Below, piece after piece: positions 24,285 through 28,892 of a stretch of DNA of 64,000 nt. The notes below the pieces were generated by a model that was given only the letters and a program-made list of their open reading frames with translations, was not told the origin of the DNA and searched no databases. The stretch is from Pseudomonas pergaminensis (lineage in GTDB: Bacteria; Pseudomonadota; Gammaproteobacteria; Pseudomonadales; Pseudomonadaceae), in contig NZ_CP078013.2 in NCBI RefSeq assembly GCF_024112395.2, forward strand, positions 434,001 to 498,000. The letters are read 5' to 3'. The translations under genes were made by a program, and so were the position numbers. Numbering within the stretch: position 1 is the first letter of the stretch; every line of letters starts with the position of its first letter.

Positions 24285-25553
24285 ATGTCTGATTTGAAAA
24301 CTGCCGCTCTCGAATATCATGCCCATCCTCGTCCAGGAAAGCTGAGTGTAGAGCTCACCAAGGCCACTGCCACCGCCCGCGACCTGTCGCTGGCCTACAG
24401 CCCTGGTGTTGCCGAGCCCGTACGTGAAATCGCCCGCGACCCCGAACTGGCGTACAAGTACACCGGCAAAGGCAACCTGGTTGCAGTGATTTCCGATGGC
24501 ACCGCGATCCTCGGCCTGGGTAACCTCGGCCCATTGGCGTCCAAGCCAGTCATGGAAGGTAAAGGCGTGCTGTTCAAGCGCTTCGCCGGCATCGACGTTT
24601 TCGACATCGAAGTCGACTCCGAAAGCCCGCAGGCTTTCATCGACACGGTCAAGCGCATTTCCATCACCTTCGGTGGCATCAACCTGGAAGACATCAAGGC
24701 ACCTGAGTGCTTCGAGATCGAAAAGGCCCTGATCGAACAGTGCGACATTCCGGTATTCCACGATGACCAGCACGGCACCGCGATCGTTACGGCGGCCGGC
24801 ATGATCAACGCCCTGGAAATCGCAGGCAAGACCCTGGCCGACGCACAGATCGTCTGCCTGGGCGCCGGCGCTGCGGCCATCTCCTGCATGAAGTTGCTGG
24901 TGAGCATGGGCGCCAAGCTGGAAAACATCTTCATGGTCGACAGCAAGGGCGTGGTCCAGTCCGAGCGTACCGACCTGAACCAGTACAAGGCGATGTTTGC
25001 CCACGCCACCGACAAGCGCACCCTGGCTGACGCCCTCGACGGCGCAGACGTGTTCGTCGGCCTGTCCGGCCCGAACCTGCTGAGCGCCGAAGGCCTCAAG
25101 TCTATGGCCGCCAACCCGATCGTGTTCGCCTGCTCCAACCCGGACCCAGAGATCTCGCCGGAACTGGCTCACGCCACCCGTAGCGACGTGATCATGGCGA
25201 CCGGCCGTTCGGACTACCCGAACCAGGTCAACAACGTACTGGGCTTCCCGTTCATCTTCCGTGGTGCCCTGGACGTTCGCGCCAAGCGCATCAACGAAGA
25301 GATGAAAGTGGCTGCCGCCAACGCCCTGCGTGAACTGGCCAAGCTGCCAGTGCCTCAGGAAGTGTGCGACGCCTACGGCGGTATCAAGCTGGAATTCGGT
25401 CGTGAGTACATCATCCCGAAACCAATGGACAAGCGCCTGATCACCCTGATCTCCGATGCCGTGGCCAAGGCCGCCATCGAGACCGGCGTGGCCACCCTGC
25501 CGTATCCGAAGCACTACCCGCTGCAAAGCGTGGATGATGTGTTCAACGGCTAA
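24285..25553 (+). CDS. maeB: NADP-type malic enzyme, short form
   Basis: A 422-residue malic enzyme that oxidatively decarboxylates malate to pyruvate, supplying pyruvate and NAD(P)H. The N-terminal domain contains [10 protein letters not shown] and [21 protein letters not shown]. The metal site lies in [15 protein letters not shown] and the Rossmann motif in [16 protein letters not shown]. It ends at FNG without the phosphotransacetylase domain that makes E. coli MaeB about 760 residues, so it is the short form. Its last 49 codons, stop, terminator and REPIN form the first copy of a threefold tandem repeat. Confidence 0.95.
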
Positions 25554-25572
25554 GCCGTTGTAGCGCACCCAC

Positions 25573-25607
25573 AAAAAGCCCCGGCTCTTGCGAGTCGGGG
25601 CTTTTTT
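25573..25607 (+). terminator. maeB rho-independent terminator (copy 1)
   Basis: The stem GCCCCG-G-CTC / GAG-T-CGGGGC with loop TTGC is preceded by five A and followed by six T. Identical copies lie at 25908-25942 and 26243-26277 in the tandem repeat, so maeB transcripts meet up to three terminators in series. Confidence 0.92.
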
Positions 25608-25642
25608 GTGGCGATTCACTTGGGCCTTGTGGAGACCCAAGT

Positions 25643-25730
25643 GTGGGAGCGGGCTTGCCCGCGATAGCGATGGATCAATCAGCTCATGTGGCGCCTGGCA
25701 CACCGCAATCGCGGGCAAGCCCGCTCCCAC
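25643..25730. repeat. REPIN, copy in tandem unit 1
   Basis: Arms GTGGGAGCGGGCTTGCCCGC / GCGGGCAAGCCCGCTCCCAC with a 48-bp spacer. It is the 3' part of the 335-bp unit. Confidence 0.92.
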
Positions 25731-25738
25731 ATTGAACC

Positions 25739-25888
25739 GAGTACATCATCCCGAAACCAATGGACAAGCGCCTGATCACCCTGATCTCCGATGCCGTGGC
25801 CAAGGCCGCCATCGAGACCGGCGTGGCCACCCTGCCGTATCCGAAGCACTACCCGCTGCAAAGCGTGGATGATGTGTTCAACGGCTAA
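25739..25888 (+). pseudogene. Duplicated 3' fragment of maeB (copy 2)
   Basis: The 150 bp are identical to the last 49 codons plus stop of maeB and have no promoter, ribosome site or start codon of their own. They arose with the 335-bp tandem duplication. They are preceded by the unit 1 terminator and REPIN, so they are unlikely to be transcribed from maeB. Confidence 0.93.
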
Positions 25889-25907
25889 GCCGTTGTAGCG
25901 CACCCAC

Positions 25908-25942
25908 AAAAAGCCCCGGCTCTTGCGAGTCGGGGCTTTTTT
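25908..25942 (+). terminator. maeB terminator (copy 2)
   Basis: Exact copy of the hairpin and T-run at 25573-25607, offset by 335 bp. Confidence 0.9.
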
Positions 25943-25977
25943 GTGGCGATTCACTTGGGCCTTGTGGAGACCCACGT

Positions 25978-26065
25978 GTGGGAGCGGGCTTGCCCGCGAT
26001 AGCAATGGATCAATCAGCTCATGTGGCGCCTGACACACCGCAATCGCGGGCAAGCCCGCTCCCAC
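25978..26065. repeat. REPIN, copy in tandem unit 2
   Basis: Same arms as the unit 1 REPIN. The spacer differs at two bases (AGCAATGG and CTGACAC). Confidence 0.92.
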
Positions 26066-26073
26066 ATTGAATC

Positions 26074-26223
26074 GAGTACATCATCCCGAAACCAATGGAC
26101 AAGCGCCTGATCAGCCTGATCTCCGATGCCGTGGCCAAGGCCGCCATCGAGACCGGCGTGGCCACCCTGCCGTATCCGGAGCACTACCCGCTGCAAAGCG
26201 TGGATGATGTGTTCAACGGCTAA
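26074..26223 (+). pseudogene. Duplicated 3' fragment of maeB (copy 3)
   Basis: The third copy of the maeB tail. It carries two substitutions relative to the other copies (ATCAGCCTG for ATCACCCTG, and CCGGAGCAC for CCGAAGCAC), both of which would change amino acids. This fits relaxed selection. No start codon or ribosome site. Confidence 0.93.
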
Positions 26224-26242
26224 GCCGTTGTAGCGCACCCAC

Positions 26243-26277
26243 AAAAAGCCCCGGCTCTTGCGAGTCGGGGCTTTTTT
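26243..26277 (+). terminator. maeB terminator (copy 3)
   Basis: Third identical hairpin and T-run, 670 bp downstream of copy 1. It faces the convergent mrcA gene 150 bp further on. Confidence 0.9.
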
Positions 26278-26312
26278 GTGGCGATTCACTTGGACCTTGT
26301 GGAGACCCACGT

Positions 26313-26400
26313 GTGGGAGCGGGCTTGCCCGCGATAGCGATGTATCAATCAGCTCATGTGGCGCCTGACACACCGCAATCGCGGGCAAGCCCGCTCCCAC
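26313..26400. repeat. REPIN, copy in tandem unit 3
   Basis: Same arms as units 1 and 2, with spacer variant GATGTATC. It ends 8 bp before the end of the triplicated tract. Confidence 0.92.
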
Positions 26401-26429
26401 ATTGAATCTGTTTCAGGCCATAAATCTCA

Positions 26430-28892
26430 CTAGAACAGATCGATCGGCGCCGCCTCATCCGCCGGCAGCGGGCTGCCCGGCGCAACGCCATTGCCCAGCT
26501 CATTGACCGACGGCGGCGTGTCCTCGCTCTTGAACAGTTCGAAGTACGCATTCGGTGTGCTTGGCGAGGCCGCACGGCCACTGACCGGGTCGATGCGCAG
26601 GCTGAGGATGCCTTCTGGCTCCGGCTGCGTGTGCGGCGGCTTGTCCTTCAAGGCCGCGCCCATGTAGCTCATCCAGATCGGCAGCGCGACGGTACCGCCG
26701 AACTCGCGACGGCCAAGGCTTTCCGGCTGATCGTAGCCCGTCCATACGGTGGTCACGTAGTCGGCGTTATAGCCAGAGAACCAGGCATCCTTGGATTCGT
26801 TGGTGGTACCGGTCTTGCCGGCAATGTCCGGACGGTTCAGCGCCAGGGCGCGGCGGCCAGTACCTTTCTTGATGACGTCTTCCAGGATGCTGTTGAGGAT
26901 ATACGTGGTACGGCCATCGACAATGCGCTCGGCGACAGCGGGTGCCTGGGGCTCGGCGGGGGTGCCGTTGGCGGCAGGGGTGGTGCCTGGAGCCGGTTCG
27001 ATGGTAATGCCGCCATTGCTCGGCGCCGCCAGGCCGTCAGTCGCCGCGACGCCGTTGACCACATCACCCGGCACACGTGGCGGGTTGGCGGTGAACAGGG
27101 TGTCGCCGTTGCGGCTTTCGATCTTGTCGATCAGGTACGGCGCGATCTTGTAGCCGCCGTTGGCAAAGGTGCTCCAACCGGTGGCGATTTCCATCGGCGT
27201 GAGGGTCGCGGTGCCCAGGGCCAGGGACAGGTTGGGCGGCAGGTCCGACTTGGCGAAGCCGAAGCGCGTCATGTAATCGATGGTCTTGCCCACGCCCATT
27301 GCCTGCAACAGGCGGATCGACACCAGGTTACGCGACTTGTACAGCGCCTCACGGATACGGATCGGGCCAAGGAAGGTGTTGGTGTCGTTTTTCGGACGCC
27401 AGACCTTGTCCAGGTACTCGTCGACAAACACGATCGGGGCGTCGTTGACCAGGCTGGCGGCGGTGTAGCCGTTGTCCAGCGCAGCGCTGTAGATGAATGG
27501 CTTGAAGCTCGAGCCCGGCTGGCGTTTGGCCTGGGTCGCGCGGTTGTAGTTGCTCTGCTCGAACGCGAAGCCACCGACCAGGGCGCGTATCGCACCGTTT
27601 TGCGGGTCCAGCGACACCAGGGCGCCTTGGGCCAGCGGCACCTGGCTGAACTTGAGGCTGTCGTCCTTCTGGCGTTGCACGCGGATCAAGTCACCCACCT
27701 GCGCCACGTCCGATGGCTGCTTGGGCATCGGGCCCATGCTGTTAGTGTTCAGGAATGGGCGCGCCCACTTCATGCTGTCCCACGTCACATGGGCTTCGCC
27801 GGTACGGGTGAGTACCTGCACCCCATCTTTCTTCACCTGGGTCACGATGGCCGGTTCCAGGCCGCTGATCGCGCGTTGTTTGCCCAGCTCAGTGGTCCAG
27901 GCGCTCAGGGTCTTGCCTGGCAGGCGCGATTCAGGGCCACGGTAGCCATGGCGTTGGTCGTAGGTGATCAGGCCGGCATGCACCGAGGTGTTGGCGATTT
28001 CCTGCAGGTCGCTCGGTACGGTGGTGGTCACGCGGAAGCCTTCGGTATAGGCCTCGCTGCCATAACGGCCAACCATTTCGGCGCGCGCCATTTCGGCGAT
28101 ATAAGGCGCGTTAACTTCTGGCGTCGGCACGTGGTAGCTGGCATTCAACGGCTCGGCGATGGCGCTTTCATAAGCGGCCTGGTCGATTTTGCCCAGCTTG
28201 TACATGCGCCCCAGGATCCAGTCGCGGCGTTCTTTACTGCGCGCCGGGTTGGCCAGGGGGTTGAAACGTGAAGGGGCTTTTGGCAGGCCGGCGATCATGG
28301 CCATCTGCGCGAGGCTGGCGTCACGAATGGACTTGCCGTAGTAAACCTGCGAGGCGGCCTCGATCCCGTAGGCGCGGTTGCCCAGGTAGATCTTGTTGAC
28401 GTAGAGCTCGAGGATCTCGTCCTTGGTCAACTGGCGTTCGATTTGCAGTGCCAGGAGGATTTCGGTGGCCTTGCGCGAAAAGCTGCGCTCGCTGGTGAGG
28501 AAGAAGTTCTTCGCCACCTGCATGGTGATGGTGCTGCCGCCGGACTGAATGTGTCCGCTTTTTACCAACTGGGTCGCCGCACGCACCAGGCTGCTGGGGT
28601 CGACGCCATAGTGGTTGGCAAAATTATCGTCTTCGGCCGAGAGCAGGGCGCTGATGAAATTGGGTGGAATATCGGCAAAACGGATCGGTGTGCGGCGCAT
28701 TTCGCCGAACTCCGCGATCAGTTTTTCATCGCTGCTGTAGACCCGCAAAGGAATCTGCAACTGGATACTTCTAAGGGCCTCTACGGAGGGCAAACCCGGA
28801 CTAAGGTAGAGGTAGGCCCCGCTCAGCACGAGCAGCAGCCCGCAAACGATGGCGACAATGGAGTACCCGAAAAACTTCAGCAGACGAATCAA
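26430..28892 (-). CDS. mrcA: Penicillin-binding protein 1A (bifunctional glycosyltransferase/transpeptidase)
   Basis: An 820-residue class A PBP (also called PonA). One N-terminal transmembrane segment (about 8-32) is followed by the glycosyltransferase domain: LLSAEDDNFANHYGVD with the catalytic Glu, GGSTITMQVAKNFFL, and RKATEILLALQIE. The transpeptidase domain carries the active Ser in QPGSSFKPF (SxxK), the SRN triad in YKSRNLVSI and KTGTTNESKDAWF (KTG). A Pro/Ala-rich insertion precedes the KTG region and a low-complexity tail follows. It polymerises and cross-links peptidoglycan at the inner membrane. It is divergent from pilM across 217 bp, the standard pseudomonad arrangement. Confidence 0.97.
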   Translation of the reverse strand: MIRLLKFFGYSIVAIVCGLLLVLSGAYLYLSPGLPSVEALRSIQLQIPLRVYSSDEKLIAEFGEMRRTPIRFADIPPNFISALLSAEDDNFANHYGVDPSSLVRAATQLVKSGHIQSGGSTITMQVAKNFFLTSERSFSRKATEILLALQIERQLTKDEILELYVNKIYLGNRAYGIEAASQVYYGKSIRDASLAQMAMIAGLPKAPSRFNPLANPARSKERRDWILGRMYKLGKIDQAAYESAIAEPLNASYHVPTPEVNAPYIAEMARAEMVGRYGSEAYTEGFRVTTTVPSDLQEIANTSVHAGLITYDQRHGYRGPESRLPGKTLSAWTTELGKQRAISGLEPAIVTQVKKDGVQVLTRTGEAHVTWDSMKWARPFLNTNSMGPMPKQPSDVAQVGDLIRVQRQKDDSLKFSQVPLAQGALVSLDPQNGAIRALVGGFAFEQSNYNRATQAKRQPGSSFKPFIYSAALDNGYTAASLVNDAPIVFVDEYLDKVWRPKNDTNTFLGPIRIREALYKSRNLVSIRLLQAMGVGKTIDYMTRFGFAKSDLPPNLSLALGTATLTPMEIATGWSTFANGGYKIAPYLIDKIESRNGDTLFTANPPRVPGDVVNGVAATDGLAAPSNGGITIEPAPGTTPAANGTPAEPQAPAVAERIVDGRTTYILNSILEDVIKKGTGRRALALNRPDIAGKTGTTNESKDAWFSGYNADYVTTVWTGYDQPESLGRREFGGTVALPIWMSYMGAALKDKPPHTQPEPEGILSLRIDPVSGRAASPSTPNAYFELFKSEDTPPSVNELGNGVAPGSPLPADEAAPIDLF

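Follow-up and report, generated by a model that had tools for sequence, protein, structure and literature searches.

In strain SBW25, REPINs, in which two inverted REPs form a hairpin, occur in 16 tandem clusters that include flanking sequence, and the authors inferred a second mechanism for these (Bertels and Rainey 2011, PMC3116915). As presented in the portions of that article drawn on here, the clusters hold near-identical REPINs placed head to tail together with flanking DNA, and the legend of its Figure S7 states that a short unrepeated stretch 'usually' lies between the units. The BIMEs of E. coli likewise combine a REP and an inverted REP in consecutive tandem copies, and are described in the relevant passages as REPs plus linkers (PMC8266576, PMC3686654). 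Tandem duplications are also reported from the same strain SBW25 on a much larger scale, with units of 45-290 kb that arose in the laboratory and with several breakpoints in intergenic repeats (PMC7661048, in the sections used here). As for the enzymes linked to REPs, the published cleavage by REP-associated tyrosine transposases (RAYTs) occurs at C|T, with the 3' C as attacker (PMC8266576, from the part cited here).

Here we describe a tandem array in the one-contig genome (6,609,381 bases) of Pseudomonas pergaminensis which belongs with the SBW25-type tandem REPIN clusters. It shares with them the near-identical REPINs repeated head to tail along with flanking DNA. Unlike the clusters as described in the above portions of PMC3116915, its flank consists of 150 coding bases and a terminator, and a single-unit relative and the join have been identified for it. 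Its units abut, in place of being parted by an unrepeated stretch; given that the legend says 'usually', that stretch is not strictly a defining feature. The gene end, the terminator, the abutting units and the readable history are, as far as can be seen, the array's own features. The gene end and terminator set it apart from the E. coli BIMEs with their linkers, and its 335-base unit and likely old age from the large, laboratory-born duplications of SBW25, a related strain. An earlier remark that REPINs are not usually thought to amplify their flanks is contradicted by the 16 SBW25 clusters, at least as these are described in the cited portions. We found no report of a REPIN array carrying a gene end in the openly licensed PMC literature, and make no claim that none exists. 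The array thus represents a tandem REPIN cluster with a readable single-unit relative, an exact join, a likely order of events and a likely presence in a second genome, through which the 'second mechanism' left open in 2011 (PMC3116915) becomes testable. It also illustrates that tandem REPIN clusters can carry host coding sequence, a point relevant to annotation and to REP-based typing.

Structure of the array

All coordinates refer to the window, i.e. the whole stretch of 64,000 nucleotides that was analysed (contig positions 434001-498000), unless the contig is named. The array lies between two convergent genes. On the plus strand is an intact maeB-type malic enzyme gene (24285..25553; 422 aa; ORF and Pfam evidence), whose product contains two malic-enzyme domains only (Pfam malic and Malic_M, both over cut-off) and whose best NCBIfam model, NADP-dependent malic enzyme PRK12861, scores under that model's full-length cut-off. 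On the minus strand is an mrcA-type gene of the penicillin-binding protein 1A family (26430..28892), recognized by an ORF with TIGR02074 over cut-off and Pfam Transgly, Transpeptidase and PCB_OB domains. Tandem Repeats Finder reports the region 25404-26408 as an array of period 335 with 3.0 copies, 98% matches and 0 indels, the top score among its 13 rows; the triplication is confirmed. The same program marks dense short-period repeats at 1737-2191, with units such as CTGCGGCCAAAC, which may be AlgP-like.

Each unit is made up of the last 150 bases (last 50 codons) of maeB, a predicted terminator, a REPIN and 7 further bases. In unit 1 (25404..25738, plus strand) the maeB 3' end is part of the intact gene, whereas units 2 (25739..26073) and 3 (26074..26408), in the same orientation, begin with detached maeB tails. 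The REPINs, consisting of two inverted REPs of type GTGGGAGCGGGCTTGCCCGC, are situated at 25641..25731, 25976..26066 and 26311..26401, and the copy 3 REPIN stretch (26290-26420) folds far better than its shuffles (z -9.2). The predicted terminator hairpins occupy 25573..25608 (plus-strand match of the terminator scan, stem 25583-25602), 25908..25943 and 26243..26278; a sequence scan finds three terminator-like sites, one per unit, as against a mean of 1.0 in shuffles, and no promoter-like site. As the unit 1 hairpin has an A-run in front and a T-run behind, this predicted terminator is possibly bidirectional. A search of 25300-26500 against Rfam gave nothing at or above the gathering score, the weak matches being hairpin look-alikes.

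The initial annotation had recognized three exact-length 335-bp copies abutting without gaps, with three terminators and three REPINs in series, and this description holds, the terminators being predictions. Its count of four to five differences per copy needs correction: copies 1 and 2 differ at 4 unit positions (237, 266, 295 and 334), copies 1 and 3 at 7 (41, 106, 221, 237, 270, 295 and 334) and copies 2 and 3 at 5 (41, 106, 221, 266 and 270). The two missense changes it placed in the maeB tail of copy 3 are present (T to S and K to E), and the tails of copies 1 and 2 have identical translations. It had also placed the unit end at the REPIN boundary. One end does adjoin the REPIN; the break itself lies 7 nt outside the arm, with the last REP-arm bases of copy 3 (CCCACA) at 26396-26401 and the unit ending at 26408. 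In units 2 and 3 the detached maeB tails are most likely inert, as they are cut off from the gene start, stand behind a predicted terminator and are covered by no ORF of at least 60 aa in the maeB frame. The array as a whole is most likely an inherited scar between convergent genes, for which no new function is needed as an explanation.

The locus in relatives

In Pseudomonas extremorientalis LMG 19695, the closest named relative, the same locus holds a single unit (99.1% identity across 333 bases) that continues into the right flank also seen here, TGTTTCAGGCC, and a second relative genome (G396) has the same letters. One REPIN is also present in the maeB-mrcA spacer of P. kairouanensis, P. 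grimontii, P. trivialis and P. simiae; REPs were counted by regular expression, which misses variant REPs (one further locus, L141, looks like such a case). Given these single units and REPINs in the same spacer, the REPIN most likely predates the duplication. The P. extremorientalis locus was taken from a draft assembly, in which a short repeat might have collapsed; a single maeB tail is also seen in relatives assembled as one contig, for instance G017 and G395. A pattern for the maeB end matched in 164 of 398 genus genomes, and more than one match was seen only in the array genome (3) and in Pseudomonas edaphica (2, on two contigs).

As proposed earlier, the locus was compared across relatives, and the array is absent from them: a direct repeat reaching into maeB occurs in none of the 119 relatives whose locus was fetched. 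This set is composed of 29 loci from a first homology search and 90 from later fetches (G396 included), 30 of the genomes having been chosen from those matching the maeB-end pattern; it leaves out 29 of the 118 congeners of the first search (28 weaker matches and G076), and one of its loci (L235) stops about 100 bases past maeB. Some direct repeat within the spacer is seen in 5 of the 119 (G039, G111, G002, G463 and G437), and in the 85 loci where the mrcA end was found the spacer ranges from 62 to 611 bases. Three contigs of the P. costantinii LMG 22119 assembly each show the maeB-mrcA locus at identical identity values, probably through redundancy of that assembly.

In the comparison with P. 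extremorientalis (over 25385-25738), unit 1 has 4 changed sites out of 335; divergence is 4% in the 403 bases upstream and 6-7% in the 3' portion of mrcA. With so few changes in unit 1 against about 7% in that portion of mrcA, the unit is unsuitable as a plain clock, and its low divergence may mark a past exchange between the species.

The join and the order of events

Of the two parent sequences of the join, the one beside the REPIN reads AATC|TGTTTC and the one within maeB GGTCGT|GAGTAC. Between units 2 and 3 (26067..26080, break 26073/26074) they meet as AATC|GAGTAC, with zero bases of microhomology between the two parents. Between units 1 and 2 (25732..25745, break 25738/25739) the join is the same except for one base private to copy 1 at unit position 334. 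When P. extremorientalis is taken as outgroup, copies 2 and 3 have a derived C in common at unit position 237; the remaining variable sites are private to copy 1 (295, 334), copy 2 (266) or copy 3 (41, 106, 221, 270). The same join together with a shared derived base in neighbouring copies, at the one site C237, is what recombination-driven change of copy number would leave. The C237 shared by copies 2 and 3 suggests, as the simplest history, one illegitimate join followed by homologous gain, with a single site grouping the copies.

We favour, with moderate confidence, the explanation that the triplication is an inherited scar of a homology-poor duplication made during copying or repair beside the REPIN hairpin and enlarged afterwards by homologous recombination. 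The strong REPIN hairpin would have stalled or broken the copying strand, which would then have been joined again within the maeB tail, some 335 bases upstream, to give the homology-poor duplication; unequal exchange between the copies would later have raised the array to three units. On the other side, by our estimate a break would fall within 8 bases of either REPIN end by chance in about 8% of cases, if breaks are uniform over the 206-base single-unit spacer.

A second genome and the age of the array

An antisense ORF running across the join (25679-26065, minus strand) was used as a query and recovered a protein, P0001, of 121 aa that is 92% identical over 97% of the query and is encoded on a contig of 329,664 bases from ENA. 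P0001 crosses the same join, without three residues, and provides an example for annotation, being an antisense ORF called across such a join in a public genome. Its residues for unit positions 237 and 221 are both V, which agrees with copy 3, and its residue for position 295 of the unit before is A, which agrees with copy 1; these characters are all read from the protein sequence. Because P0001 shares the join and the copy-specific variants, the array is probably not recent as had been supposed: it and the divergence of its copies are likely older than the split of the two genomes, unless the changes arose twice. The order of units in the P0001 genome likely differs, as it would after loss or gain of a unit. 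Another candidate, P0002 on a 540-base contig, was set aside as a rearranged maeB piece without the join.

Pattern searches for the join were run on two overlapping genome sets, with one genome per species and the array genome in neither, so that they lacked a positive control: a 37-base pattern with up to 3 mismatches matched none of 391 family genomes, and a 25-base pattern with 2 mismatches matched 3 of 398, where the letters (of the TTAACCGAGTACATC type) resemble REPIN flanks elsewhere.

Other duplications in this genome and in the spacer

Tandem arrays with a period of 40 or more and 80% matches were collected from 2,444,000 bases (37% of the genome), a sample made up of the window, 99 stretches at even spacing and 20 others within the first 1.44 Mb. 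A REP core is present in 15 of the 18 arrays, compared with 14% of random 335-base windows. Twelve of these 15 belong to one dispersed 72-75-base family; outside it, 3 arrays have a REP core (the maeB array included) and 3 do not. When the first 2,044,000 bases were compared with themselves by BLAST, direct repeats within 3 kb formed 24 clusters, of which 17 contain a REP core and 7 lack one. Members of the 72-75-base family (e.g. contig 757618-758283 and 1289198-1290050) carry one REP type and occur on both strands, and in 10 of the 12 whose flanks were compared GTACATATCC stands on one side.

The mapping of further REPIN-linked tandem units, called for in the initial annotation, did turn up a second gene-end duplication in this sample; its join is not at a REPIN foot. 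At contig 4428314-4428590, 138 bases comprising the 3' end of a PNPOx-type gene and half a REPIN are doubled, with 1 base shared at the join, one break between the two REP arms and the other in the gene. Some 4 kb away, at contig 4432108-4433705, a 146-base REP-bearing unit is repeated about 11 times.

The maeB-mrcA spacer itself has been duplicated separately in P. edaphica RD25 (NODE_72; NODE_318 ends in the repeat). Its different join lies between the mrcA and maeB ends, with CCCG common to both parents (read by eye), and neither break is at the REPIN. One of these spacer copies apparently contains a REPIN of a second type, and the contigs are interrupted within the repeat. REP or REPIN repeats occupy the same spacer in G039, G463 and G437, and G111 has a 133-base array there whose unit shows no REP core by eye. 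The maeB-mrcA spacer and the surroundings of REPINs thus duplicate repeatedly, and the breaks are not tied to the REPIN foot. The idea that the REPIN boundary is the breakpoint is accordingly a weak one, as the two comparable duplications break between REP arms or away from the REPIN.

Alternative explanations

As neither P. edaphica break sits at the REPIN, the hairpin beside the maeB array is possibly a bystander too, with a chance illegitimate duplication, for example by Ku/LigD end joining of a broken fork, happening to include it. The join without shared bases, the presence of a Ku gene in the genome (E 3.2e-47), the P. edaphica event in this very spacer and the G111 array without a visible REP core are all consistent with such an origin. 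It is set against the association of tandem arrays with REPs in this genome and the fact that both gene-end duplications in the sampled 37% include REP sequence, and on the whole we consider it possible yet rather unlikely. That REPINs act generally as repeat makers for host DNA, copying ends at the hairpin foot being joined again and again to upstream DNA, which would multiply neighbouring gene ends and terminators in tandem and leave them for a long time as countable orthologous units in a species group, is a broader generalization that we regard as doubtful. An enzymatic origin, in which a RAYT cut at the REPIN foot and transferred this end to the sister copy, within its maeB tail, leaving a blunt tandem duplication, had been raised in the initial annotation. 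Part of this idea has a basis: among three matches to the Y1 transposase in the genome, of which one (L001) has an internal stop, L003 is an intact REP-associated tyrosine transposase with the HFH motif (NCBIfam REP_Tyr_transpos, 149 bits against a cut-off of 80) next to a REPIN whose REP differs at 1 of 21 bases, which makes it the candidate cognate enzyme. On the REPIN side the top strand is broken at C|T, the published TnpAREP cleavage dinucleotide, and in maeB the bottom strand is broken at C|A, a second site of the Marinomonas enzyme (PMC8266576, in the part cited). No single strand fits on both sides, however, the top strand reading T|G in maeB and the bottom strand A|G at the REPIN, by dinucleotide rules that come from published enzymes (PMC8266576, same part) and may not be those of this Pseudomonas RAYT. 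Nor do the other two joins have C|T, one side of the 138-base duplication being C|A on the bottom strand (by eye), and the likeness of the maeB join to REPIN flanks (CGAGT) is not significant, an equally common 5-mer occurring in 15% of random joins. RAYT action at the array is thus possible but unsupported, because the joins of the two comparable duplications lie away from REPIN feet and neither strand here offers suitable dinucleotides at both breaks, and we judge this route improbable.

Selection might instead have kept the array, three terminators and three REPINs serving to insulate the convergent genes or to stabilise transcripts. The genes do converge, each unit has one predicted terminator and the array seems to persist in the second genome; in relatives, by contrast, single-unit spacers are the rule and their length of 62-611 bases speaks against any fixed arrangement, which makes this a very improbable explanation. 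Short repeats being a known source of assembly error, an artefact could also be imagined; against it stand the base differences between the copies, the assembly of the genome as a single contig and the protein that another genome encodes across this join, so that we give it almost no credence. Duplication beside the REPIN hairpin with later homologous recombination is the history that we prefer over these alternatives.

Sequences adjoining REPINs

Among 349 non-array REPIN right flanks in the 2.44 Mb, GACCGAG was seen 13 times against 0.66 expected, an enrichment of about 20-fold, which suggests that the mobile unit or a preferred site may extend past the arm. The idea that the maeB join used such a REPIN-flank target (TTGAATCGAGT, in the same register as GACCGAG) was rejected: the motif, chosen post hoc, gave 1e-4, and the fairer test was matched by 15% of random joins. 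The linkers of the G039 array contain about 22 bases that were not seen by eye in three single-REPIN relatives (L187, L246 and L249). An outside template for this filler was likewise rejected, as the 3 matches with up to 3 mismatches in G039 all fell within the array. The linker in G463 is related to that of the G039 array.
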